Shown piece by piece: positions 1,002-37,927 of a stretch of 64,000 bases of DNA. The stretch lies in NCBI GenBank assembly GCA_023664265.1, contig JAMPFV010000011.1, forward strand, positions 1-64,000, given 5' to 3'. The position numbers and the translations under genes were made by a program. Source of the stretch: Roseburia sp. GTDB taxonomy: Bacteria; Bacillota; Clostridia; Lachnospirales; Lachnospiraceae. The notes under the pieces are model-generated. The model was not told the origin of the DNA. It made no database searches and saw nothing but the letters and a program-made list of their open reading frames with translations. Position 1 is the stretch's first letter. Every line of letters begins with the position of its first letter.

Positions 1002-2612
1002 CTATTTTGAATTTTCTGTTTGTCTTTCCGGTCGTGCGCTTCTTGTCTGTAGCGTCTCCATCCGAATCACCCTATCATACTTCGCAAGCGTCTCCTCGGA
1101 GGTATCATGCGTAATGATAATCACCGTCTTGTCCGCCATCTCCCTACCGTGCAGCAGATACTCCTGTATCTTTTCCGTATTGGCGGCATCCATCGCGGCA
1201 AACGGCTCGTCCAGCAAAATTATCGGCGTGTCCCGCGCAATCACCCGCAGAAAGGCGATAATCTGTTTTTCCCCGCCGCTCATGTTCCGGCAGTCTGTCT
1301 CCTGCTCCCGTCCACGGTTCCAGAAGGTATCCCAGAACACCCTTCCCACGTTGGGATAGGAGCCAAAGACCGTGACATTCTCCTCCAGCCCCGCCTGATA
1401 GATATACTCATTCTGGTCAATATAGGTGATGCAATCCACCGTATCCAGCGTGCCAATCGGATGCCCGTCCAGCAGTATTTCCCCTGAAGCCGGTTTCAAA
1501 TACTGCATGATCAGCTTGAGCAGTGTGGACTTTCCGGATCCGTTTGCGCCGATAACCGCGTATTTCTTTCCTTTCTCAAAAGCAAGCTCGGATATCTTCA
1601 GGGAGAACTCCCCATTTTGGAATGCAACGTCACGAAGCAAAAGTCCTGTCTCCACAGACTGCGGGGCAGAGCGCTCCCCACGCAGACCTGTCCCAATAAT
1701 ATCCAGGAACTTCCGGCGCACCTCCGCCGTGGACTGGATAGCGCTTACATCCTCCAAGATAGAATTGAGCGGGGATATAAAGCTGCTGACATAGCCAAAC
1801 GCAGCAACGCCCGCGCCGATACTGATTTCACCGCCTGCCAGCAGCACGCAGACACAGACAAAGGACACGATCTCTATGACCTTGATCGCGGCGTCATTGA
1901 TGCTCAGCGCCAGCGTCTTGCTCTTCCCGTAACGGTAACGCCTGTCAGCCGTTGTGTTCAACGCTGCTTCATGCACCCCCAGCAGATTTCCCCGTGTCCG
2001 GTTGTTCACAAGCTTATAGCCGCTTAGCAGATCCGTAATGCGGTTCACGTACCCCGCCATCCGGTTCTGATATTCGAGCCTCCGCTCGGACATCATTTTT
2101 CCTGTTATTTTAGGCCCCACGATCACAAGGAACGAGGACAGAATGATCGCCAGCGCAATCCGCCAGTCCACAAAGACGACAATCACCACCGCATAGATCA
2201 CAAACATATTCACAGAGCGGAAGACGTCCACCCATGGCTGCAGGTAATCCTGCTCGAGCGCGGTGATATCATTGCCCTGCAGAGATATGTAATCGCCCAC
2301 GGAATGCGCGTAAAAGTGCTGCTCATCCTTGTGCAGCAGCGCGCGGATAAATTCTTTCTTCAGACACGCCTCGAATTTAATCGCACCCTTCCAAGTATAC
2401 AGCATACAGAAATAAGTACAGAGACACGACAATCCCTGCAGCAGGATAAACGCCCCGATAATCCTCGGGATCGGGGACAGGCGCCCCGCGCTGACACTGT
2501 CAAACATTTCCTTCTGCAGCACAGGAATAAACGCCGCAAAAACCGTGCACAGAATATCCAACAGAATCTCCGCAAAAATATAACCTTTGATGCGCTTCAT
2601 GTACTTTTTCAT
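1002..2612 (-). CDS. ABC transporter, fused permease and ATPase
   Basis: A 536-residue half-transporter of the exporter type, expected to work as a dimer in the cell membrane. The N-terminal 300 residues hold about six hydrophobic segments (ABC_membrane domain). The nucleotide-binding domain follows, with Walker A GANGSGKST, Q-loop YIDQNEY, signature MSGGEKQ, Walker B IILLDEP and H-loop ITHD. The distance between Q-loop and signature is shorter than in most exporters, as in bacteriocin and peptide exporter relatives. The substrate cannot be read from the sequence. A GGGGGAACGG ribosome site precedes the ATG. It is separated from murA by a terminator, so it is its own transcription unit. Confidence 0.85.
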   Translation of the reverse strand: MKKYMKRIKGYIFAEILLDILCTVFAAFIPVLQKEMFDSVSAGRLSPIPRIIGAFILLQGLSCLCTYFCMLYTWKGAIKFEACLKKEFIRALLHKDEQHFYAHSVGDYISLQGNDITALEQDYLQPWVDVFRSVNMFVIYAVVIVVFVDWRIALAIILSSFLVIVGPKITGKMMSERRLEYQNRMAGYVNRITDLLSGYKLVNNRTRGNLLGVHEAALNTTADRRYRYGKSKTLALSINDAAIKVIEIVSFVCVCVLLAGGEISIGAGVAAFGYVSSFISPLNSILEDVSAIQSTAEVRRKFLDIIGTGLRGERSAPQSVETGLLLRDVAFQNGEFSLKISELAFEKGKKYAVIGANGSGKSTLLKLIMQYLKPASGEILLDGHPIGTLDTVDCITYIDQNEYIYQAGLEENVTVFGSYPNVGRVFWDTFWNRGREQETDCRNMSGGEKQIIAFLRVIARDTPIILLDEPFAAMDAANTEKIQEYLLHGREMADKTVIIITHDTSEETLAKYDRVIRMETLQTRSARPERQTENSK

Positions 2613-2629
2613 AACCGTTCCCCCACTTA

Positions 2630-2662
2630 CAAAAACAGGAAGCTGCCTCCACAGCAGCCTCC
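2630..2662 (-). terminator. Intrinsic terminator after murA
   Basis: A 9-bp stem (2638-2646 with 2654-2662, one G-T pair) and a 7-base loop are followed on the minus strand by TGTTTTTG. It lies 33 bases past the murA stop and just before the ABC transporter start. Confidence 0.8.
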
Positions 2663-2694
2663 CTCTACGTTTACCGGCTCTCTTTTCTTCTTAA

Positions 2695-3993
2695 TTACGA
2701 AACCACCCTGAGCTTAAACTTCGTAAGCTCCTTATCCGAATCCACTTTCTGGATAATCGCGCCCAGCTTCTGAAGCTTTAACTCAAAGTCCTCATAGCCG
2801 CGCTCGATATATTTGATATCCTCCACCGTGCTGAACCCCTCCGCCGCAAGGCAAGCCAAGACAAGCGCCGCGCCCGCGCGCAGATCCGGCGCGGTGAGGT
2901 TCGCGCTTGTAAAGCTCTCCACGCCCTGTATAATCGCGGTATTCCCGCCCTCTACCTTAATGTTCGCCCCCATCTTCGCCAGCTCATCCACATATTTAAA
3001 CCGATTGTCAAAAATGCTCTCCGTGACGATGCTGATTCCCTTCGACAGCGCCAGCGCCACCGCAATCTGCGGCTGCATATCCGTCGGAAAGCCGGGATAC
3101 GGCAAGGTCTTGACATGCGTGCTCTCAAGACGCTTGGAGGCCACCACGCGCACCGCGTCGTCGGACTCCTCAATCTCGCAGCCCATTTCCATCAGCTTCG
3201 CGGTCGTCGATTCCAGATGCTTGGGAATCACGTTCTTGACCGTCACATCCCCCTTCGTAATCGCGGCGGCAAACATAAATGTCCCCGCCTCAATCTGATC
3301 CGGGATAATCGAATACTCGGACGCATGAAGCTTCCTCACACCGGTAATGCGCACCACATCCGTGCCTGCGCCCTTGATATTGGCGCCCATAGAGCTCAAA
3401 AAGTTCGCCACGTCAACCACATGAGGCTCCTTGGCCGCGTTCTCAATCACGGTCTTGCCCTCGGCGAGCACCGCGGCCAGCATAATATTGATGGTCGCAC
3501 CCACAGAGACCGTGTCCAGATAAATATGCGCCCCTCGAAGCTGCTGCGCATCCACAATGATCAATCCATGCTCAATCTTGACCTGCGCGCCGAGCGCCTT
3601 AAAGCCCTTGATGTGAAGGTCTATCTTGCGGCTCCCGATATTGCAGCCGCCCGGCAGGGCAACCTCCGCATGCTTATATTTGCCAAGCAGCGCGCCGAGC
3701 AAATAGTAGGAAGCCCTGATTTTCTTGATATAGTCATCCTCAATCACAAGTCCTGAAATCATGGACGCGTTGATTCTGACCGCGTGTCTGTCCGTTCTAT
3801 ATACAATCACTCCGATACTTTCCATCGCTTGAAGAAGAACATTGATGTCCCTGACATCCGGTATGTTCTCTATCACTGCCATCTCATCAGTCATAATCGC
3901 CGCGGCCAGAATCCCCAGCGCCGCATTTTTAGCGCCACCAATCTCGACCTCGCCAACCAGAGAATTACCGCCCTTAATCGCGTACTGTTCCAT
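2695..3993 (-). CDS. murA: UDP-N-acetylglucosamine 1-carboxyvinyltransferase
   Basis: This 432-residue enzyme transfers enolpyruvate from PEP to UDP-GlcNAc, the first committed step of peptidoglycan synthesis, in the cytoplasm. The family Lys-Asn pair is seen in GGAKNAAL near residue 22, and the catalytic cysteine in PGGCNIGSR near residue 117. That cysteine is the fosfomycin target, and its presence predicts sensitivity. Length is normal. Many clostridia carry two murA copies; from this window I cannot say which this is. A clear promoter lies upstream and a terminator downstream, so it is probably monocistronic. Confidence 0.95.
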   Translation of the reverse strand: MEQYAIKGGNSLVGEVEIGGAKNAALGILAAAIMTDEMAVIENIPDVRDINVLLQAMESIGVIVYRTDRHAVRINASMISGLVIEDDYIKKIRASYYLLGALLGKYKHAEVALPGGCNIGSRKIDLHIKGFKALGAQVKIEHGLIIVDAQQLRGAHIYLDTVSVGATINIMLAAVLAEGKTVIENAAKEPHVVDVANFLSSMGANIKGAGTDVVRITGVRKLHASEYSIIPDQIEAGTFMFAAAITKGDVTVKNVIPKHLESTTAKLMEMGCEIEESDDAVRVVASKRLESTHVKTLPYPGFPTDMQPQIAVALALSKGISIVTESIFDNRFKYVDELAKMGANIKVEGGNTAIIQGVESFTSANLTAPDLRAGAALVLACLAAEGFSTVEDIKYIERGYEDFELKLQKLGAIIQKVDSDKELTKFKLRVVS

Positions 3994-4061
3994 CGCTCAC
4001 CTCATAATATCTTCCACAATCTATAATCAAAACACGCTTTCAAATTTCATAAGCTTACCCG

Positions 4062-4090
4062 ATTATATACCTTTTTCTTTCTTTTGTAAA
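4062..4090 (-). promoter_or_regulatory. Sigma-A-type promoter of murA
   Basis: On the minus strand, TTTACA (4085-4090) and TATAAT (4062-4067) are 17 bases apart. The murA start lies about 70 bases downstream. Confidence 0.75.
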
Positions 4091-4193
4091 CTGAAAGACT
4101 TGTTCGCAAAAAGTACCGAAATTATCTGTTTTCTTGTAAAATTAACGCAATTGCCGGTATAGCATCTCCAAATCCCGCAACGCCGCGCCGGTA

Positions 4194-5774
4194 TCAGTTC
4201 AGATATTTCAGCGGATTCACGGCATTGCCGTTAATGCGAATCTCAAAGTGCAGATGCGGTCCGGTGGTTCTGCCCGTATTTCCGCTGAGCGCGATTCGCT
4301 CGCCCTGCGATACGGTCTGCCCCGTCTTGACCAACACCTTGCTCAGATGCCCGTAGCGCGTCTGTCTGCCGTCCGCGTGATTGATGTAAACGGCATAGCC
4401 GTAACCGCTCGCCCATCCCGCAAAGGCCACCGTTCCGCCATTTGACGCGACAACCGTGGTGCCGACGGGAACCGCCCAGTCCACACCCTTATGGTAGGTG
4501 GAAGCCCCCTTGGTCGGCGCGCTTCTCGCCCCAAAGCCGGAGCTTAAACGTCCGCCTGAAATCGGCTTGATATAGGTCGGCGGTATCTTGGTGCCGCGCT
4601 CCACAATCTTAGGCACAGCCTCCGCATAAACCTGCTCCTTCAAAATCTCGCGATTGGTCTCCTGCCCGTTCTTATATTCTATCAGCGAAGCGACCTTGCG
4701 CCGGCCCGCGGAAGGCTCCTGCAGCGTGACCCGCTGCGTCGTATACCAGTCGTCGTTCGGCACATACTGTACCTCCGCCTCGTAATCCTCGACATATACC
4801 TGCTGCTCCGACCAGATAATGGACAAATCCGGCTCCGGTACCGTAATGACAAGCTCCTGGCCCACGCGAATCATCGTATTCTCGTCCTCCAGCGCGTCGT
4901 TGATCGCAATCAGCTCGTCCATCGGAATATTGTTCTCAAGGGAAATCTCCGAGAGCGTGTCACCCGCCACCACCTCATAAATAATCTGCGTCTCCTGCTC
5001 CTTGGTCACCAGATTCACGGCCTCCTCCACGGTGAGCAGCTCCTCCTCGAGAAGATACGCCTCCACAACCTCTATTTTCTCCGCATAGCGGATATCCGTA
5101 AGGCCTGTGTCATAGGCCTCGAAATCCATCTCCGTCACAGGCTCCGCGGGTGTAAACATCGCGTCAAAATCCGCCTCGACGCCCGCCGACAGCAGCAGCG
5201 GCTCCTCCTCCGGCATAAGCGCCTCCTGCGTGACCACCCGCGCCTCGAGCACGTTAATCTCGCGATTGCGGTTCAAAGCCAGTTCCACATCATAGATCCC
5301 CTTGGTGTCATACGGCTCAATCGCCTGCTTCAGGAGCGCGTGAACCTCCTCATAGGAGCCCAGATTCACCGCCGTTTCGCTTATCTTCACCGTGTAGGAG
5401 CGGTGCAGCGTCTCGCGGGTACTGTCCTTCATCACGCGCACCATATTTTCAATGATGGTCTTGTCGCTGTCTACCTTTCCCCACAGCTTCTCGCTCCCCG
5501 CCAGATCCAGCGACAGATCCATCAAAATCAAATCGCCGCTTCCCGACTCCGCGGCCACCTGCCGGCGCGCCTCCGCCATCAGCGCGTCAACGCGCTCCGG
5601 CGACTCCACGCTTCCGACCTCAACGCCGTTTATTGCCACGCGGAAGTAATTGTCCCCCGTGTGTCTGTAACGCTCCATGGAAGGCAGCAAAAAAAGACAC
5701 AAGAGCAAGGAAATCACTGCCGCCTCTATATAGCAAAGCCTGAATCTTCTATAATAATGCTGTACTCTTCTCAT
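4194..5774 (-). CDS. M23 metallopeptidase with LysM and G5-like domains
   Basis: A 526-residue membrane-anchored or exported cell-wall hydrolase. One hydrophobic segment lies at about residues 16-31. A LysM peptidoglycan-binding domain follows at about 262-312 (VAGDTLSEIS), then a G5-like segment (VYVEDYEAEVQYV onward), then the M23 peptidase domain. That domain has zinc ligands in YHKGVDW and GPHLHFEIR near the C-terminus. Such enzymes cut peptide cross-links in peptidoglycan; related clostridial proteins act in cell separation or sporulation. The ATG directly abuts the stop codon of the flavin reductase gene, so the two are likely translated from one message. Confidence 0.9.
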   Translation of the reverse strand: MRRVQHYYRRFRLCYIEAAVISLLLCLFLLPSMERYRHTGDNYFRVAINGVEVGSVESPERVDALMAEARRQVAAESGSGDLILMDLSLDLAGSEKLWGKVDSDKTIIENMVRVMKDSTRETLHRSYTVKISETAVNLGSYEEVHALLKQAIEPYDTKGIYDVELALNRNREINVLEARVVTQEALMPEEEPLLLSAGVEADFDAMFTPAEPVTEMDFEAYDTGLTDIRYAEKIEVVEAYLLEEELLTVEEAVNLVTKEQETQIIYEVVAGDTLSEISLENNIPMDELIAINDALEDENTMIRVGQELVITVPEPDLSIIWSEQQVYVEDYEAEVQYVPNDDWYTTQRVTLQEPSAGRRKVASLIEYKNGQETNREILKEQVYAEAVPKIVERGTKIPPTYIKPISGGRLSSGFGARSAPTKGASTYHKGVDWAVPVGTTVVASNGGTVAFAGWASGYGYAVYINHADGRQTRYGHLSKVLVKTGQTVSQGERIALSGNTGRTTGPHLHFEIRINGNAVNPLKYLN

Positions 5775-6356
5775 TTATTTTATATCCTTAACCCGGCTCT
5801 TCCGGATGCTGTATCCGAATTTCCCCAGATTCTCTCCCAAATCAAAATATTCCCCATGCGAATACACGATGGGCTTTGCCTCGGCAAGCCGAAAGCTGCC
5901 TTTCTCATCCATGTACGCATCCTCAACCTGCACTGCAACCACGCGGGCGATAAACATATCATGGGAGCCGAGCTGCTCCACCCGCTCCACCTTACACTCA
6001 ATGTTCACGGGGCTCTGTGCGATTCCCGGCGCGCAAACCTCCCGCGAAGGCGTCGGCGTCAGCTTCAAAGCCTCCCATTTGTCCACGTCCCGCCCGCTCT
6101 TAACGCCGCAATAATCCGCGGCCAATGCCAGCTCGCGCGTTGTCAGATTGATGACAAACGCCCCCGTCTCCATAATCATATGATGTGAATATCTGCTCGG
6201 GCGTACGGAAATACTGACCATAGGCGGATTCGTACAGATTGTCCCCGCCCATGCCACCGTGAAAATATTGGTCTTTCCCGCCTTGTCCGCCACACTCACG
6301 AGCACCGCCGGCAGCGGATAAAGCATATTGCCCGGCTTAAAGGATATCTTTGCCAT
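5775..6356 (-). CDS. Flavin reductase family protein
   Basis: A 193-residue cytoplasmic FMN-binding split-barrel protein. The N-terminal NMLYPLPAVLVSV and the TVAWAGTICTNPPMVSISVRP stretch (positions 33-53) are typical of the flavin reductase-like family, and SHDMFIARVVAV follows. Members bind FMN and reduce it with NAD(P)H or act as small flavoproteins; the partner is not known here. It lies between a coiled-coil membrane protein (5-base gap) and the M23 peptidase (no gap), so the three form an operon whose members have no obvious shared function. Confidence 0.85.
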   Translation of the reverse strand: MAKISFKPGNMLYPLPAVLVSVADKAGKTNIFTVAWAGTICTNPPMVSISVRPSRYSHHMIMETGAFVINLTTRELALAADYCGVKSGRDVDKWEALKLTPTPSREVCAPGIAQSPVNIECKVERVEQLGSHDMFIARVVAVQVEDAYMDEKGSFRLAEAKPIVYSHGEYFDLGENLGKFGYSIRKSRVKDIK

Positions 6357-6361
6357 CGCGC

Positions 6362-7249
6362 TCAGAACACGCCGAGCACGGTCAGCAGCAGCAGACTGAT
6401 TGCGAGTCCGGCCACGGAGGCCACCATGGAAATCACGCTCACCGTCATCACATTGCTCATCTTCGACCTGAGCCGGTTATTCTCCGCGGTCAGACCATCC
6501 GCATAGCGCTTCAGTTCTTCAACGACCACAGCCTGCACGTTCCTGTATACCTTAACGCTCTCCTTGTGCATGAAATCATCGGAATATTTGAACTTCTCCT
6601 CAATGATGTCCGCAATCGCATTGAAATCGTTTTCCTTCTGCTCCCCGTCCCCGTCTTCCCGAAGCGCCTCCTCAGCCTCCTGCATCGCGCGCTCACGCTC
6701 CAAGCGGGCCTCCTCTGCCACACGCTCACGCTCCTGACGCTCACGTTCCGCGCGCTCGCGCTCCTGACGAACCTCCTCCGTCATGCGTTCCCGCTCCTGA
6801 CGCTCGTGCTCTGCGCGCTCCTTCTCCATGCGCGCCTGCTCCAGCGCGCGCTCCTTCTCCATGCGCTCCTGCTCTAACGCACGCTCACCGGTCAGGCGCT
6901 CCTGCTCCGCCGCACGCTCGCGCTCCAGCAAAGCCCGCTCTCTCTGTGAGAGCTCCGCCTCGCGGGTTCTGGTCTGCTCGACCGCAATGTCGCGCATGGA
7001 CGCGACGAGCTTCTCCTGCTCCTCCTTCATGCCAAAGAGCTTCTTCGCGCCGTCTCCGATCATCTCATCAAGCTTCTCTGAAATCTCCGTATTCTTATAA
7101 TTCAGCCGGCGCATCTCCTGCAAAATCTTCTCATACTCCGATACCTGAAACTGAAGCCGCTTGATCTCCGCCGCCTCCGCCTGTGAATTTGCCTTTATCA
7201 TCTCCTGCGCGCTGAACTTCTGTGCCAGCCTGTCCATAAAGTTATCCAT
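6362..7249 (-). CDS. Coiled-coil protein with C-terminal membrane anchor
   Basis: A 295-residue protein without a family I recognise. Residues about 95-205 are highly charged Glu/Arg repeats (RERALLERERAAEQER and similar), giving a long predicted helix or coiled coil. The last 30 residues are hydrophobic (VMTVSVISMVASVAGLAISL onward), a tail anchor. A longer reading frame starts upstream at 7399, but ATG 7249 has GGAGA at the right distance and begins MDNFMDRLAQKF, so I chose it. It is first gene of the row with the flavin reductase and M23 peptidase. A structural role at the membrane is possible but unproven. Confidence 0.75.
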   Translation of the reverse strand: MDNFMDRLAQKFSAQEMIKANSQAEAAEIKRLQFQVSEYEKILQEMRRLNYKNTEISEKLDEMIGDGAKKLFGMKEEQEKLVASMRDIAVEQTRTREAELSQRERALLERERAAEQERLTGERALEQERMEKERALEQARMEKERAEHERQERERMTEEVRQERERAERERQERERVAEEARLERERAMQEAEEALREDGDGEQKENDFNAIADIIEEKFKYSDDFMHKESVKVYRNVQAVVVEELKRYADGLTAENNRLRSKMSNVMTVSVISMVASVAGLAISLLLLTVLGVF

Positions 7250-7700
7250 ACTTTTCTCCATTTCGAAATAATTTATCCATCGTATCTCTGTGTCCAAAGC
7301 CGTACCATACATATAAATATATATTAAAAAGTTTACCACTAAATTCAAGATATGACAACACCAAAAGCAATTTGCAGCACAAAAAGCAATTTGCGGCACA
7401 AAATACGTAACGGTTTTGCGCTGTAAACCAATGTCCTTCCATCATCGCTTCGTGTTTTTGCACAGAATATTTCTCTTTTCCCACCGATAAATGTGCACAT
7501 TTACAATAAAATTACATTTTGTTCATATTTTGTTCACACTCAGGTGATATTCTTTATTTATCAGGAACACAGATATATCGTACTTAAATTGATATCTGAC
7601 AGATAAATTTTTTCATAATAGCCTCGGCACAGAAATGTGTCGGGGCACTCCTCATTTTACAGGCGGATTTTACACAAAGCAATTCAAAACGGAGGGCAAA
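7250..7700. other. Intergenic region between divergent genes
   Basis: About 450 AT-rich bases without a convincing gene. It holds two 19-bp direct repeats (listed separately) and several TTTTGTTCA-like words around 7520-7550. Promoters for both flanking genes should be here, but I see no clear pair of boxes. Confidence 0.6.
7363..7400. repeat. Two tandem 19-bp repeats, possible operator
   Basis: The unit AAAAGCAATTTGC(A/G)GCACA occurs twice head to tail (7363-7381 and 7382-7400) with one difference. On the minus strand each unit contains TTTG-N5-CAAA. It lies about 115 bases upstream of the coiled-coil gene start, a plausible regulator site. Confidence 0.6.
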
Positions 7701-7967
7701 ATGTTCAGATTATGGGTAAAAACCTTTAAAGATAACCGCATGCTGCGCGACACCGTTATCTGCAACGACAGCGCGGATACGCGGACGCACAAGATTTTTG
7801 AGGCCTTGGAGCAGGCCTGCTATGAATTCGATCTCGGCAAGCCCATTTGGCTTGATTCCACGATTGCGGACTTCAAGAAGCACAGCCGGACGCGCTTTAC
7901 CGCGGACAACTTCATTGAGGCAATCAATTTCGATTATCTGGAGATACAGGTAATCGAGGAGGACTGA
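7701..7967 (+). CDS. Small protein of unknown function
   Basis: An 88-residue acidic, soluble protein starting MFRLWVKTFKDNRMLRDTV. The longer frame starts at 7635, but ATG 7701 has GGAGG at ideal spacing. No signal peptide, membrane segment or catalytic motif is visible. The composition and well-formed ribosome site support a real gene. I do not recognise its function. Confidence 0.7.
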   Translation: MFRLWVKTFKDNRMLRDTVICNDSADTRTHKIFEALEQACYEFDLGKPIWLDSTIADFKKHSRTRFTADNFIEAINFDYLEIQVIEED

Positions 7968-31182: not shown

Positions 31183-32250
31183 ATGAAAAACATTATTTTG
31201 GTTGTAGACGACGACAAGACCAACCTGGCGCTTGCGCAGAAAATCCTTTTGCCGTACTACCGCATCGCGGCGTGCAATTCCGGCACAGCGGCTCTGAAAT
31301 ATTTGGAAAATAACCGGCCCGATTTGATCCTGCTGGACATCAATATGCCGGACCCGGACGGCTTCGCAGTGATGGAGCGGCTTCAGGCACAGGAAAAGAC
31401 AAAGGCGATTCCGGTCATCTTCCTGACTGCGGACAACTTGGCGGAAACGGAAATCAAATGCTTTCAGGTGGGCGCGATGGACTTCGTCGTCAAGCCCTTT
31501 ATTCCGGATATTCTGCTCAGCCGCGTCGGCAAGACCCTGGAGCTGTCACAGTACCGGAACAATCTGGAGAACATGGTGCGGGAGCAGGCCGAAAAGATTA
31601 CCGAGGACGCGCGGCGCATCAGCCTGATTCAGGATTCTGTCATTGTAGGGATGGCCAACCTTATCGAGAGTCGGGACGGCAGCACCGGAAAGCATGTCAA
31701 GAATACCCAGATGTATGTGCGGATGATTGCAGACGAGCTGCACAGCCGCGGACTGTTCGCGGCGGAGCTGACACCGGAATACATAGAGGATCTCTGCAAG
31801 GCGGCGCCCTTGCATGACGTCGGGAAAATCAAGGTGCCGGACGCGATTCTGCAAAAGCCCGGGAAGCTCACGCCGGAGGAATTTGACGCGATGAAGCTCC
31901 ACACCACCTACAGCCGCAAGATCATCCACACCATCATCGGCGATGTGGAGGACGCCCACTATGTGCAGATTGTGGAGGATATCGCCATGTATCACCATGA
32001 GCGCTGGGACGGCTCCGGATACCCAACGGGACTTGCGGGAGACAGCATCCCGCTGGCCGCGCGGATCATGTCCGTTGCGGACGTCTTTGACGCGCTGTAT
32101 GAGGAGCGCTGCTACAAGCCGCCGATTCGCCCGATTGAGCGGATCATGCAGATTATGTCCGAGGGGCGCGGCACGCAGTTTGACCCTGTGATCATCGACG
32201 TATTTATGGAAATGCTGCCCAAGCTCAAGGAGGTCCTTGGCATCGCCTGA
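31183..32250 (+). CDS. Response regulator with HD-GYP phosphodiesterase domain
   Basis: A 355-residue protein. Residues 3-120 are a receiver domain with the acidic DDD cluster, the phosphorylated Asp in LILLDINMPDPDG near residue 49 and the Lys in VVKPF. Residues about 150-350 are an HD-GYP domain with LHDVGKIKVPDAILQKPG, HHERWDGSGYP and RIMSVADVFDAL, all metal-binding residues kept. This predicts a phosphorylation-controlled c-di-GMP hydrolase. It is first in an operon with two hybrid kinases; the next frame begins 32 bases downstream. Confidence 0.93.
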   Translation: MKNIILVVDDDKTNLALAQKILLPYYRIAACNSGTAALKYLENNRPDLILLDINMPDPDGFAVMERLQAQEKTKAIPVIFLTADNLAETEIKCFQVGAMDFVVKPFIPDILLSRVGKTLELSQYRNNLENMVREQAEKITEDARRISLIQDSVIVGMANLIESRDGSTGKHVKNTQMYVRMIADELHSRGLFAAELTPEYIEDLCKAAPLHDVGKIKVPDAILQKPGKLTPEEFDAMKLHTTYSRKIIHTIIGDVEDAHYVQIVEDIAMYHHERWDGSGYPTGLAGDSIPLAARIMSVADVFDALYEERCYKPPIRPIERIMQIMSEGRGTQFDPVIIDVFMEMLPKLKEVLGIA

Positions 32251-32282
32251 TATACTATGGAGGAAAGGAACGGGAATTTACC

Positions 32283-35240
32283 TTGGAAGAAAAACAATTT
32301 CTAAACAATAAGACAAACCTCAAGCTGGAGCGGATTGTTCTGGGAATATTTACGATATTCTCACTCGCCATGTTTATATCGGCGTTTCTGCTGAATTGGA
32401 GCATTTACGCAAAGGAGACCATTCTCGCCATCATAGCGGCAGGCTGGTTCGTCGTCCTAAAGGGCTATCGCGACCACGCGTTTCGCGCGAAGCTCCTTTC
32501 AGTGCTGGCGTGGCTGAATTTTTCCATCTACGCCCTTCATTCGCAGAGCTTCACCTCCATGCTGTCCACAATGATGGCCCTGATTGTCCTGCTCGGCGCC
32601 TTCTGTATCTCGGATATTATTTTTCTCAGCATTTTTTTCAGCACGGCAATTTTTCTCTTCCATATAGCTCTCGCGGGGACTGTGGAGCTTGCGTCCGCCA
32701 ACGACATTCTGCGGCTGGTTCTGCATGTGCTCTCCGCCTACGCGATTCTGCTGGTCACTTGGATCACCCTGCGCATCCGGCAGGAGACGAGCGAAAAGCT
32801 GATAGCGAACATCCATGAATTGGAGATTGTAGAGCAGAGCAAGGACGACTTCATGGTCAATATTTCGCACGAAATCCGCACCCCCATCAACGCGGTCTGC
32901 GGCATGAGCGAGGCGATTCTGCAGGAAAATCTCCCCGCAAGCGTCCGCAGGGATATTGTCGATATCCAGACCGCCGGACGCAACCTGCTCTCGACGGTCA
33001 GCAATATTCTGGACTTCTCGGAGCTGGAAAGCGGCAAAATGGAGCTTGCGGAGGAGAGCTACAACATCACCTCCACCATCACGGACATCATCAACATGGC
33101 GCTGACCATGGAAAACGGCAAGCATCTCGAGCTGATTGTGGACTGCGATGCCAATCTGCCCAGCAATCTTGTCGGGGACGAACAAAAACTGCGCCGTATT
33201 GTAATGAACCTGTTGGAGAACGCGATCAAGTTCACCAAGGAGGGCGGTGTGGTGCTGCGCATCAAGAGCCGCAGGGAGCTGTACGGCATCAACCTGATGA
33301 TCAGCATTCGGGACTCCGGCATCGGCATGAAGCAGGCGGACATGGAGAAAATCTTCACCAGCTTCAGCCAGCTCAATTCCAAGCGCAACCGCGAGGAGGG
33401 CGGAATCGGCCTCGGTCTCTCCATCACGCAGGCCCTTGTCCAAAATATGGGCGGCTTTATCACCGTGGAAAGCTCCCCCGGGAACGGGACGGAATTCCGC
33501 CTTACCCTTCCGCAGAAGGTTCTGGACGAGACCCCGATTGTCTCCCTCCACAATAAGAGCCGGCTGTTCGCCGCGTGCTACATCAACATGGATAAATACA
33601 ACTATACCGTCGTGCGCGAGGGCTACGAGAAGTGCATCCGCCACATGGCGGATCAGTTCGGAATCCTGTTCCGCATCTGCAAAAACCTTGCGGAGCTGAA
33701 GCGGCGTATTGAGCGCGAAAACTTCTCTCATGTCTTCATCAGTTGGGATGAATACCGCGAGGACAGAGCGTTCTTCGAGCAGCTCGCCAATGAGCTTACC
33801 GTCGTGCTGATTCTGGATTATGACCAGGAACCGCTTGTCGGCAGCAACATGCTGCGCATCTACAAGCCTTTCACCGTGCTGTCCATCGCGGCAGTGTTTA
33901 ACGGCCGGAAGACGCTTCAGCGCGACGCGCAACACATCGACCTCAAGCGCCGTTTTGTCGCACCCGACGCAAAGGTGCTCGTCGTGGACGACAACGCCAT
34001 GAACCTGAAGGTGATGGCACGACTGCTGCTGCCCTATCAGATCAAGGTCTCCATGGCCAGCAGCGGGCAGGAGGCCTTAAACAAACTGGACTCCATGGAG
34101 TACGACTGCGTATTCCTCGACCATATGATGCCGGAGATGGACGGCGTGGAGACGCTCCACAGAATCCGGCAGAAGCCCGGAAACTATTTCCAGTCTCTGT
34201 CCGTCATTGCCTTCACCGCCAACGCCATCGGCGGCGCGCGAGAGATGTTTCTCGATGAGGGCTTCGACGACTTTATTGCCAAGCCGATCGAGCTGAGCGT
34301 CCTCGAGCGTATGCTGCGCCGCTATATTCCGGTGCGCAAGCAGCTTCCCGTCGCGGACGAAAATGACGAAGTTCCCGCAACAGCGGACACAACCGTGGAG
34401 GCAACCATGGTTACGACCATGGATATGCCCGCACCCCCTCCGATCTCTCCCGCTGCTGTCGCCATATCCGCCGACAGCAGTTCCGCTCCGGTCTCCAAGC
34501 CGCCCGCCCCTGCAGACGATACTGCCGCGCTTGACGCGCTCAAGCAGGCCGGCATCAACATCCGGCAGGGAATCGCTTACTGCGGCGACAAGGAGGGCTT
34601 CCGCGAGATTATCACGATTTACCACACGGAAGGGCAGCGGCGCAGCAGACAGCTTGCGCAGTTTTTCCAGGAGCAGGATTGGAAAAATTACGTCATCACG
34701 GTTCACGCCCTCAAGAGCAACTCCAAGGGCATCGGCGCCAACGAGCTTGCCGAGCTTGCTCTCAAGCTCGAGATGGCGGGCAAGGAAAACCGGGTGGACT
34801 ATATTCTGGCGCGCCATGAGGAGCTGTTGGAAAAACACAATGCGCTCCTGCACGCGCTCGGTCAAAGCGCGTTCCTCTATCCTGACAGAAGCCCTGACGG
34901 AAATCACGGCGACGACGGGCCGCCCGCTGAGAACGACACGGCCGCTCCGGAACGGACGCGGGAAACGGACGAAGCCGCATCCGTTCCACGGGAAGCGCTG
35001 CCTGAGGCGGACAGCGCCGCTTTCACGGCGCTGCTCACCGCCCTGCGCGAAAAGCTTGACAGCTTTGAGGGCGAAGGCATTGACGCGATTTTGGCGCAAT
35101 TGGAGCAGTACCGCTATCACGGAACAGACTTGTCCGAGCTGACTGCCGAAATCCGAAGCCGAATCGATGATTTCGACTTTCTCGGTGCGTCTGACGTGTT
35201 GGATTCATGGGAAGAAAAGCCGGTGGGAGGTACGATATGA
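32283..35240 (+). CDS. Membrane hybrid histidine kinase with REC and Hpt domains
   Basis: A 985-residue sensor. About six membrane segments occupy residues 15-165. A HisKA domain has NISHEIRTPINAV with His196, followed by a HATPase domain (NLLENAIKFT, GGIGLGLSITQ). A degenerate receiver-like segment lies at about 430-540, a true receiver at about 565-690 (VLVVDDNAMNLKVM, FLDHMMPEMDG), a proline-rich linker at 700-745, and an Hpt domain with VHALKSNSKGIG (His808). This makes a complete phosphorelay. The start is TTG with a distant GGAGGAAAGG, so it is uncertain. It overlaps the next kinase by four bases (ATGA). Confidence 0.9.
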   Translation: MEEKQFLNNKTNLKLERIVLGIFTIFSLAMFISAFLLNWSIYAKETILAIIAAGWFVVLKGYRDHAFRAKLLSVLAWLNFSIYALHSQSFTSMLSTMMALIVLLGAFCISDIIFLSIFFSTAIFLFHIALAGTVELASANDILRLVLHVLSAYAILLVTWITLRIRQETSEKLIANIHELEIVEQSKDDFMVNISHEIRTPINAVCGMSEAILQENLPASVRRDIVDIQTAGRNLLSTVSNILDFSELESGKMELAEESYNITSTITDIINMALTMENGKHLELIVDCDANLPSNLVGDEQKLRRIVMNLLENAIKFTKEGGVVLRIKSRRELYGINLMISIRDSGIGMKQADMEKIFTSFSQLNSKRNREEGGIGLGLSITQALVQNMGGFITVESSPGNGTEFRLTLPQKVLDETPIVSLHNKSRLFAACYINMDKYNYTVVREGYEKCIRHMADQFGILFRICKNLAELKRRIERENFSHVFISWDEYREDRAFFEQLANELTVVLILDYDQEPLVGSNMLRIYKPFTVLSIAAVFNGRKTLQRDAQHIDLKRRFVAPDAKVLVVDDNAMNLKVMARLLLPYQIKVSMASSGQEALNKLDSMEYDCVFLDHMMPEMDGVETLHRIRQKPGNYFQSLSVIAFTANAIGGAREMFLDEGFDDFIAKPIELSVLERMLRRYIPVRKQLPVADENDEVPATADTTVEATMVTTMDMPAPPPISPAAVAISADSSSAPVSKPPAPADDTAALDALKQAGINIRQGIAYCGDKEGFREIITIYHTEGQRRSRQLAQFFQEQDWKNYVITVHALKSNSKGIGANELAELALKLEMAGKENRVDYILARHEELLEKHNALLHALGQSAFLYPDRSPDGNHGDDGPPAENDTAAPERTRETDEAASVPREALPEADSAAFTALLTALREKLDSFEGEGIDAILAQLEQYRYHGTDLSELTAEIRSRIDDFDFLGASDVLDSWEEKPVGGTI

Positions 35241-37927
35241 GAAAGAAGCTGCATACATTTCTGAGAGCGCTCCTAAATGAACAGTTGGATTTTCAGGAAC
35301 GCCTGAACCGCATTGTCCTGATATTGGCGTTTGTCGCATCCCTGATCGGCATGGGGCGCATCCTGTTTGGCACCACCCCTGTCGTGCTGGCCGCGCTCAT
35401 TCCCATGTGCCTTGTCTCCGGCGCCGCGCTCTTTATTACGGTCAAATACAATAAGATCCGTCCGGCGGCATGGCTGCTGGTGCTGACCTCCAATATGCTC
35501 CTGTTTCCACTGGTCTTTTTCCTGAGCAGCGGTACGGACAGCGGCACGCCGGTATGGCTGGTGCTGGGGCTGGTGTATATCTTTGTGTTGTTTGAGGGGA
35601 AAGATTTCTTTATCGCGCTTTTCCTCTCCATAGCGTCCTTTTTTGCGACCTACACCCTCGCATATCACTATCCGCAGCTTTTGCCGGAGGCGCCCAGCCG
35701 CTTCTACAGCTTCGGGGACTCCTTCGTCACGCTGGTCGTCGTGAGCTGCTTTATCGGCTTCCTGCTGAGAATACAGTTCCTGACCTACGATAAGGAGCGG
35801 CGGCTTGCGGAGCAACAGCGGGAGGAAATTGAGCGGATTGCCCGCTCCAAGGATACCTTTTTCGCGAACATGAGCCACGAAATCCGCACCCCGATCAACA
35901 CCATCATCGGGCTGAACGAGATGATCCTGCGGGAGGACATCTCGGATGAGATTGCGGAGAACGCCATCAATATCCAGAACGCGAGCAAAATGCTGCTGAC
36001 CACCATCAACGACATTCTGGATCTGTCCAAGCTGGAATCCGGAAAGATGGAGATTGTCCCGGCGCAGTATGAAATCAGCTCCATGTTCAGCGACCTTGTA
36101 AACCTGATTTGGATTCGCGCGCATCAGAAGGAGTTGGAGTTTAAGGTTGACATCGATCACGATATCCCCTCCATGCTCTACGGCGACGAGGTGCGCATCA
36201 AGCAGGTTATCACGAATATGCTGACCAATGCGGTCAAATACACGGAGACCGGCTCCGTCACCCTCTCCGCAAAGGGGGAGCGCCTCAGCGCGGACGAGCT
36301 TCTGCTGCGCATTTCCGTGGAGGATACCGGAATCGGCATCCGCAAGGAAAGCCTTGACGACCTGTTCCAGTCCTTCAAGCGTGTGGACGAGACGAAGACC
36401 CGCAATATTGAGGGAACCGGGCTTGGACTCACCATCGCCAAGCAGCTTGTCGAGATGATGGGCGGCAAGATTTCCGTTGACAGCGTGTACCACAAGGGTT
36501 CCGTCTTTACCATCGAAATCCGACAGAAAATCGTCAATGCGCAACCCATCGGCATTATTGATTTCGCGGCGCAGAAGCAGTTGGATCAACGCACCAAATA
36601 CCGTCAGTGCTTTACCGCGCCGGACGCGCGGGTGCTTGTCGTGGACGACAACGATATGAACCGCATGGTTGCCGTCAAGCTGCTGCGCGGCACCAAGATT
36701 AAGGTGGAGACCGCCGAGAGCGGGCGGGAATGTCTCAGGCGCACTGCGGAAAGCTCTTATCATGTGATTCTGATGGATCACATGATGCCGGAGATGGACG
36801 GCGAGGCCACCCTGAAGGCCATCCGCGCCCAGACAAGGGGCTTCTGTCAGCGGGTGCCGGTTATCGCCCTGACGGCAAACGTTATGACCAACGCCGAGCA
36901 GGTCTATCAGGACATGGGCTTTGACGGCTATCTTGCCAAGCCTATCAACGCCGCGCTCTTGGAGGCGAGCCTGCTCAAATATCTGCCGTCCGAGCTGATT
37001 GAGTACGCCGTGGATCCGGACGAGGAGGATTCGGAGGAGACCGCCATCCGGCAGATTACCACCGCCCGCAAGCGAAAGGTCGCAATCACCGCGGACTGCA
37101 TCTGCGATTTGCCGCGGGATTTATTGGAGAAATATCGGATCCGCCTGATGTACTGCTATGTACACACCAAGGAGGGACGCTTCTGCGACCTCTTTGAGGT
37201 GTCCTCCGACAGCCTGCTCAACTACCTCAAGACGGAGGGCAATTACGCGCACTCCTCCACCGCGGAGCCTTCGGAGTATGAATACTTCTTTGCGGACACG
37301 CTCGAGACCGCGGAACATGTGATCCATATCACCGCGACAACAGCGCTGAGCGGCGCCTATCCGAACGCCCTGCAGGCGAGCAAGAGCTTTGATAACGTTA
37401 CGATATTCGACTCCACGCATATCAGCAGCGGCCACGGTCTGATGACGCTGTATGCCGCCGTCCTTGCGGAGGAGGGAAAGGATGTCGGGGAAATCTGTGC
37501 CGCCCTCGAAAAATTCAAGGATTCCGTGTGCTCCAATTTCCTTGTGCCGAGCACGGAGGCGCTCTACCGCAACGGAAAGGTCAGCGGACTTGTCCATAAG
37601 CTCTGTGCCGCGCTGAATCTGCATCCGGTGCTGCATATGTCGCGAAATGAGCTCAAGCTCTGGAAAATCGAGGTCGGCAACATGAAGCATGTGCGGCGCA
37701 GATATGTGAAAAGGCTGTTGAGCCACAGCAGACAGATTGACACCGATATCCTGTTTCTCACCTACGCGGGCTGCACCATGCGCCAGCTCGACGAGATACT
37801 GGAGGAAGTGGAAAAATATGTGAAGTTCGACAAGATTGTCCTGCAGAAGGCCTCCGCCACGGTCTCAAGCAACTGCGGCGTGGGCGTGTTCGGACTGATG
37901 TTTGTCAGGAGAAATGAGAAGGAATGA
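35237..37927 (+). CDS. Hybrid histidine kinase fused to a DegV fatty-acid-binding domain
   Basis: An 896-residue protein. About six membrane segments lie in residues 20-185. HisKA has NMSHEIRTPINTI (His214), then HATPase (NMLTNAVKYT, GTGLGLTIAKQ), then a receiver at about 464-580 (LVVDDNDMNRM, ILMDHMMPEMDGE). From about residue 614 to the end is a complete DegV/EDD domain: ITADCICDLP, HSSTAEPSEYEYF, ITATTALSGAYPNA, FDSTHISSGHGLM and a glycine-rich end. DegV proteins bind single fatty acids and act with fatty-acid kinase. The fusion suggests lipid-linked output or sensing. ATG 35237 has GGGAGG and overlaps the previous stop. Confidence 0.9.
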   Translation: MRKKLHTFLRALLNEQLDFQERLNRIVLILAFVASLIGMGRILFGTTPVVLAALIPMCLVSGAALFITVKYNKIRPAAWLLVLTSNMLLFPLVFFLSSGTDSGTPVWLVLGLVYIFVLFEGKDFFIALFLSIASFFATYTLAYHYPQLLPEAPSRFYSFGDSFVTLVVVSCFIGFLLRIQFLTYDKERRLAEQQREEIERIARSKDTFFANMSHEIRTPINTIIGLNEMILREDISDEIAENAINIQNASKMLLTTINDILDLSKLESGKMEIVPAQYEISSMFSDLVNLIWIRAHQKELEFKVDIDHDIPSMLYGDEVRIKQVITNMLTNAVKYTETGSVTLSAKGERLSADELLLRISVEDTGIGIRKESLDDLFQSFKRVDETKTRNIEGTGLGLTIAKQLVEMMGGKISVDSVYHKGSVFTIEIRQKIVNAQPIGIIDFAAQKQLDQRTKYRQCFTAPDARVLVVDDNDMNRMVAVKLLRGTKIKVETAESGRECLRRTAESSYHVILMDHMMPEMDGEATLKAIRAQTRGFCQRVPVIALTANVMTNAEQVYQDMGFDGYLAKPINAALLEASLLKYLPSELIEYAVDPDEEDSEETAIRQITTARKRKVAITADCICDLPRDLLEKYRIRLMYCYVHTKEGRFCDLFEVSSDSLLNYLKTEGNYAHSSTAEPSEYEYFFADTLETAEHVIHITATTALSGAYPNALQASKSFDNVTIFDSTHISSGHGLMTLYAAVLAEEGKDVGEICAALEKFKDSVCSNFLVPSTEALYRNGKVSGLVHKLCAALNLHPVLHMSRNELKLWKIEVGNMKHVRRRYVKRLLSHSRQIDTDILFLTYAGCTMRQLDEILEEVEKYVKFDKIVLQKASATVSSNCGVGVFGLMFVRRNEKE

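Follow-up and report, generated by a model that had tools for sequence, protein, structure and literature searches.

The window, which is the whole 64,000-nucleotide stretch of Roseburia sp. DNA analysed here, carries on its forward strand a phosphorelay operon of three genes (31183–37927). The first (31183–32250) encodes a REC-HD-GYP response regulator of 355 amino acids, assigned by Pfam and predicted to be a c-di-GMP phosphodiesterase. The second, HHK1 (32283–35240), encodes a hybrid kinase of 985 amino acids, and the third, HHK2 (35237–37927), a membrane hybrid histidine kinase of 896 amino acids that ends in a DegV domain. The ATG of HHK2 overlaps the stop codon of HHK1 (ATGA), which we take as a sign of translational coupling. 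A search for RNA elements in the window gave no Rfam match at gathering level.

HHK2 is read from a single uninterrupted open frame. Hydropathy places a six-helix membrane region at residues 26–182 (35312–35782), the least conserved domain of the protein, with a mean identity of 24%. Pfam then identifies HisKA (residues 205–269; 35849–36043), whose phospho-His in the SHEIRTP motif is conserved in 110/110, HATPase_c (residues 316–430; 36182–36526) with intact N and G boxes, and a receiver (Response_reg, residues 466–577; 36632–36967) in which the phospho-Asp and the Lys are each present in 111/111. With these three domains and the H, N, G and D residues intact, HHK2 qualifies as a hybrid histidine kinase. 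A disordered, fast-changing linker (37016–37063; pLDDT under 50, 19% identity) leads to a complete two-lobed DegV/EDD domain (37076–37909), recognized by Pfam, NCBIfam and AlphaFold. The DegV profile PF02645 matches residues 614–891 over positions 1–279 of 280 with 146.3 bits (1.5e-42) against a curated cut-off of 27 bits, and NCBIfam DegV TIGR00762, for which the cut-off is 99.7, scores 155.9 bits. All four Pfam domains, the receiver included, lie far above their cut-offs, and the four DegV motifs quoted in the original prediction are all present, so that its description of membrane, HisKA, HATPase, receiver and full DegV in one chain is borne out.

A chain of this kind could have arisen as an artefact, two genes having been joined in metagenome assembly or by annotation; the window comes from a genome in 100 contigs, and three or four relatives contain frame breaks. 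This explanation is refuted by the occurrence of the same full-length fused frame in about 110 other genomes, independent assemblies that include the named strain 1xD42-87 (L110), and it is further contradicted by the presence of one Hpt per kinase pair, described below, and by purifying selection on the fused DegV (dN/dS about 0.07–0.12 where dS is unsaturated). We give it virtually no weight, and the frame can be considered genuine; fission of the gene is likewise rejected.

The architecture is common within one family. Judged from open-frame lengths, roughly 35 of the 200 Lachnospiraceae genera sampled have a DegV match within a fused frame, a count that includes some frames truncated at the end of a contig. 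When GTDB genomes were scanned, 551 relatives were returned, and nearly all of the best 80 are labelled Lachnospiraceae. Outside this family the fusion was found in three genomes only, from one genus of another family in the same class, with strict search thresholds that may miss divergent cases; the other matches in the class, order and phylum are stand-alone proteins of about 280–330 amino acids. When 103 DegV domains were placed in a tree by a quick method, a single branch with SH-aLRT support of 100 separated the fused domains from the rest, and a single state change accounts for their distribution. Multiple independent fusions are rejected by the same tree, according to which the fusion has a single origin.

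Locus L145 carries two HK-REC-DegV genes in tandem (2448–7834) and is among the few loci keeping His at the position of FakB residue 270. In L189 (4632–7997) a PAS hybrid kinase gene is followed, 34 nt on, by an independent DegV gene of the canonical stand-alone type, and the tree places its product among the stand-alone domains. L192 (5117–6901) encodes Dak2, the FakA middle domain and DegV in one chain of 594 amino acids, which resembles a fatty acid kinase in a single chain or a FakA variant with a FakB-like C-terminus. An apparent fusion of 580 amino acids in G234 (L212) turned out to be a canonical stand-alone DegV whose open frame extends too far.

HHK1, the partner kinase, has about five membrane helices by hydropathy, followed by HisKA, HATPase, a stretch of about 140 amino acids, a receiver and an Hpt domain (34605–34799, Pfam), the only Hpt of the pair. 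Its Hpt His is conserved in 108/109. The stretch between the kinase and the receiver (33560–33975, residues about 425–560) has no Pfam match; its spacing is conserved in all partners, and it may represent a receiver that has degenerated.

A second membrane hybrid kinase lies directly upstream of the fusion in 20/20 of the first neighbourhoods, and in the wider set HHK1 is directly upstream in 109/109 intact fusions with room for it, at a median gap of 3 nt; in one further locus, L145, the tandem copy has another fusion before it. The Hpt is on HHK1, with none on the fusion, in 102 loci. In the seven loci where HHK1 lacks an Hpt (L054, L174, L175 and L177–L180), the domain is found on the fusion, behind DegV, in 7/7 cases, and six of these seven fusions group in one clade of the DegV tree. 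The locus counts (109, 102 and 7, as well as 77 below) do not represent independent events. Each pair thus has exactly one Hpt, located on the partner or, if absent there, on the fusion. Together with the near-invariance of the phospho-His, the phospho-Asp, the Hpt His and the metal-binding and GYP residues of HD-GYP, this suggests, as the simplest reading and by analogy with LadS, which uses the Hpt of GacS, that the fusion and HHK1 form one relay with two inputs. The swap of the single Hpt between two kinase genes can be seen as a natural demonstration of one relay. A recurring protein of 250 amino acids, with an unrecognized N-terminal half and a C-terminal receiver, is encoded downstream of the fusion in L174 (9396–10154) and also in L054, L177, L179, L180 and L184, mostly adjoining Hpt-carrying fusions.

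As in the window, the gene next upstream of the kinase pair encodes a REC-HD-GYP protein at 77 of about 110 loci, and the motif residues of this protein are all kept (81/81). About 10 loci have other REC, GGDEF or HD-GYP genes at this position; genes seen there in place of REC-HD-GYP encode a lone receiver or REC-GGDEF-REC with or without HD-GYP. Chemotaxis genes (CheY-CheA-CheW-MCP) lie upstream in four checked loci, CheB also being seen in the chemotaxis set, and GGDEF/EAL proteins adjoin some other fusion loci. Because some loci lack HD-GYP, one fixed output is not supported. Among the genes examined, the conserved neighbourhood contains no lipid genes. The proposal of an undescribed system built on the fusion protein holds in part: the fusion is real, but what is conserved as a unit is two kinases sharing one Hpt, to which a c-di-GMP or chemotaxis response regulator is usually added, and this operon had been overlooked when the protein was viewed singly.

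An AlphaFold model of the DegV domain, based on 25 aligned sequences of fused relatives, has the full two-lobed fold that had been anticipated (mean pLDDT 92.8, pTM 0.90). The top structural matches (Foldseek, VIA-align) are Thermus thermophilus DegV 2dt8 (Z 32.9 over 275 residues), the FakB proteins (Z 31–33 for FakB1/FakB2) and other lipid-loaded DegV structures. A fixed interface between the receiver and DegV was not seen, as the model has no confident mutual orientation of the two (pTM 0.66) and the linker is disordered; any intramolecular coupling is therefore not visible in the model.

In FakB1 of S. aureus, Thr62, Ser95, Ser171 and His270 bind the fatty-acid carboxylate, Arg173 acts as a latch and in catalysis and is needed for acyl phosphorylation, and Arg205 docks on FakA and the membrane (PMC8892158, PMC9136124). 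The joint alignment places Asn879 of HHK2 (37871–37873) at His270, Val813 (37673–37675) at Arg205 and Lys781 (37577–37579) at Arg173. Asn at position 270 is the hallmark of the fused clade: it occurs in 107/111 fused rows and 0/33 stand-alone rows, the latter having His (27/33) or Tyr (6/33). Five nominally stand-alone DegV with Asn270 proved to be fusions truncated by a frame break or at the end of a contig, and they are counted here among the fused rows. The window has Ser, Ser and Asn at the places of Thr62, Ser95 and His270, and the carboxylate network of FakB is thus not reproduced, Ser95 being kept in most fused DegV. The docking residue is likewise missing, with Arg at position 205 in 2/106 fused rows compared with 26/33 stand-alone rows. 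At position 173 the fused rows have Lys (74) or Arg (23), the stand-alone rows Arg throughout. Trp180, which inserts into the membrane in FakB, is mostly Lys or Arg in fused DegV. The tunnel and lid positions 162, 181, 185 and 191 (FakB1 numbering) remain hydrophobic, and the surface positions 52, 73, 75 and 78, variable in FakB, are conserved as Tyr, Phe, Ala and Leu in the fused clade, which suggests a new docking face; in HHK2 these residues are Y663, F684, A686 and L689. In short, the fused DegV has the whole-domain fold, the family profile and the tunnel hydrophobicity in common with FakB and T. thermophilus DegV, and differs from them in its position behind a receiver, its own branch in the tree and the four altered residues.

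If the fused DegV still served as a FakB, it would load a fatty acid at the membrane and pass it to FakA, and signalling would tap fatty-acid activation. The shared fold and the presence of a normal FakA gene in the genome are in line with such a function, but Arg205 is lost in 104/106 rows, Arg173 has mostly become Lys and His270 has become Asn, at positions that the stand-alone DegV proteins keep. We consider this function very improbable. The original prediction had pointed out that DegV proteins present fatty acids to a kinase; with these residues changed throughout the family, and with four stand-alone DegV proteins encoded in the genome besides FakA, such a role is not supported for the fused domain. 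As the changes are conserved and clade-wide, they indicate re-tasking and not decay, and the alignment suggests that the fused DegV is probably not a substrate of fatty acid kinase but a tethered ligand-binding module of the phosphorelay. The tunnel fold is kept, the head-group end is rebuilt (His to Asn) and FakA docking is lost, which makes a sensor for a fatty acid or another lipid-like ligand, rather than a carrier for FakA, the most likely function. With His270 and Arg205 missing, however, the domain might also bind no fatty acid at all.

Alternatively, DegV might bind no ligand and be a structural remnant or a scaffold that joins the two kinases by docking or dimerization. The new conserved hydrophobic surface positions, the flexible linker and the altered head-group residues would all fit a scaffold. 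However, the head-group end is conserved in a new form (Asn in 107/111 rows, within an NCGPG motif) and has not decayed, the tunnel positions are still hydrophobic and the whole domain is under purifying selection, so that we regard a ligand-free scaffold as unlikely.

Two degenerate relatives, L187 (4790–7378) and L191 (4951–7563), bear on the role of DegV within the chain. In both, the H-box of HisKA and every acceptor residue of the receiver are gone, yet the ATPase motifs and a whole DegV domain with NCG are retained; neither has an HHK1, and two GGDEF genes follow. The retention of DegV despite the lost phosphotransfer residues implies that it can be of use even when its own chain does not transfer phosphate. 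This agrees with a role in binding a ligand or a partner, and agrees poorly with DegV as a mere slave of the receiver. The same relatives, in which DegV is retained beside GGDEF genes, can also be cited in favour of DegV as an output, such that phosphorylation of the receiver would switch it on or off as a lipid carrier or partner-binding domain. Its location directly behind a receiver is where response regulators have their output domains, and the conserved new surface could bind a partner. Yet delivery to FakA is unlikely given the loss of Arg205 and His270 and the mostly Lys or Arg residue at Trp180, the Hpt follows DegV in seven loci and DegV is hence internal to the relay, the parallel with LadS would put the receiver on the path of the relay, and HD-GYP, GGDEF and CheY outputs are encoded next door. 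An output function therefore appears improbable, to a similar degree as the scaffold.

Our preferred interpretation, to which we assign a probability of about 55%, is that the operon encodes one multi-kinase phosphorelay in which DegV is a tethered module, most likely sensing a fatty acid or lipid-like ligand and biasing the balance between kinase and phosphatase activity. The domains, the intact catalytic residues, the operon and the one Hpt per pair are seen in the sequence, and from them we infer the route of the phosphate. Two membrane hybrid kinases would use a single Hpt in common: HHK2 would autophosphorylate on His and transfer the phosphate to the Asp of its own receiver and then to the Hpt of HHK1, which HHK1 itself would also feed. 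From this Hpt the phosphate would pass to the receiver of the REC-HD-GYP protein, setting the breakdown of c-di-GMP; in relatives, the targets would be GGDEF proteins or a chemotaxis receiver. DegV would act as a ligand-binding regulatory module on a floppy linker from the receiver, and ligand binding would bias the kinase/phosphatase balance of the HHK1–HHK2 pair with no acyl delivery to FakA.

These results describe a hybrid-kinase phosphorelay with a re-tasked DegV that is real, widespread, of single origin and, as far as searched, undescribed; no description of a DegV–receiver fusion was found in the open-access literature searched, in agreement with the expectation that the system is new. 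They suggest a relay through which lipids, or some similar ligand, would control signalling by second messengers or signalling for movement in many gut Lachnospiraceae, dominant gut anaerobes that are exposed to host and dietary fatty acids. If so, the DegV fold, which is familiar as the carrier of acyl groups for fatty acid kinase, would have a further role in signalling, and a candidate route would lead from lipids to the control of c-di-GMP or motility in this family. A more specific picture, a lipid-sensing phosphorelay widespread in gut Lachnospiraceae in which a DegV acyl carrier has turned receptor and free fatty acids set c-di-GMP or chemotaxis via the shared Hpt, is possible but rather doubtful.

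Among known systems, the BarA/TorS/ArcB-type hybrid kinases are the best NCBIfam matches of the kinase–receiver core, although the matches lie far under every equivalog cut-off and none of these kinases has DegV. The closest parallel for the pairing is Pseudomonas aeruginosa, where LadS uses the Hpt of GacS (PMC4866733). HHK2 and HHK1, like LadS and GacS, combine an Hpt-less hybrid kinase with an unorthodox REC-Hpt kinase, with H1, D1 and H2 intact, and this type of pairing is found in 102 loci, the 7 others having the Hpt on the fusion. Unlike LadS–GacS, the two kinases share an operon, either of them can carry the Hpt, and the kinase that lacks it has DegV; the outputs are c-di-GMP or chemotaxis receivers in place of the DNA-binding regulator of LadS–GacS/GacA. 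A second parallel is provided by Xanthomonas, where RpfC senses the fatty acid DSF, which it binds by its 22 N-terminal residues, and signals to RpfG, a REC-HD-GYP protein (PMC5391125). HHK1 and its REC-HD-GYP neighbour repeat this TM-HK-REC-Hpt plus REC-HD-GYP plan, with a fatty acid as the proposed signal here. RpfC has no DegV partner kinase, and the genes of the window that were examined do not include the DSF synthase gene rpfF; the genome has a single ECH_1 match, which is on another contig (C16); since the synthase is not next door, we claim likeness to RpfC/RpfG and not membership. Should the relay sense lipids, it may, as a tentative view, be analogous to DSF signalling without descending from it, responding to fatty acids that are the cell's own, dietary or derived from the host.
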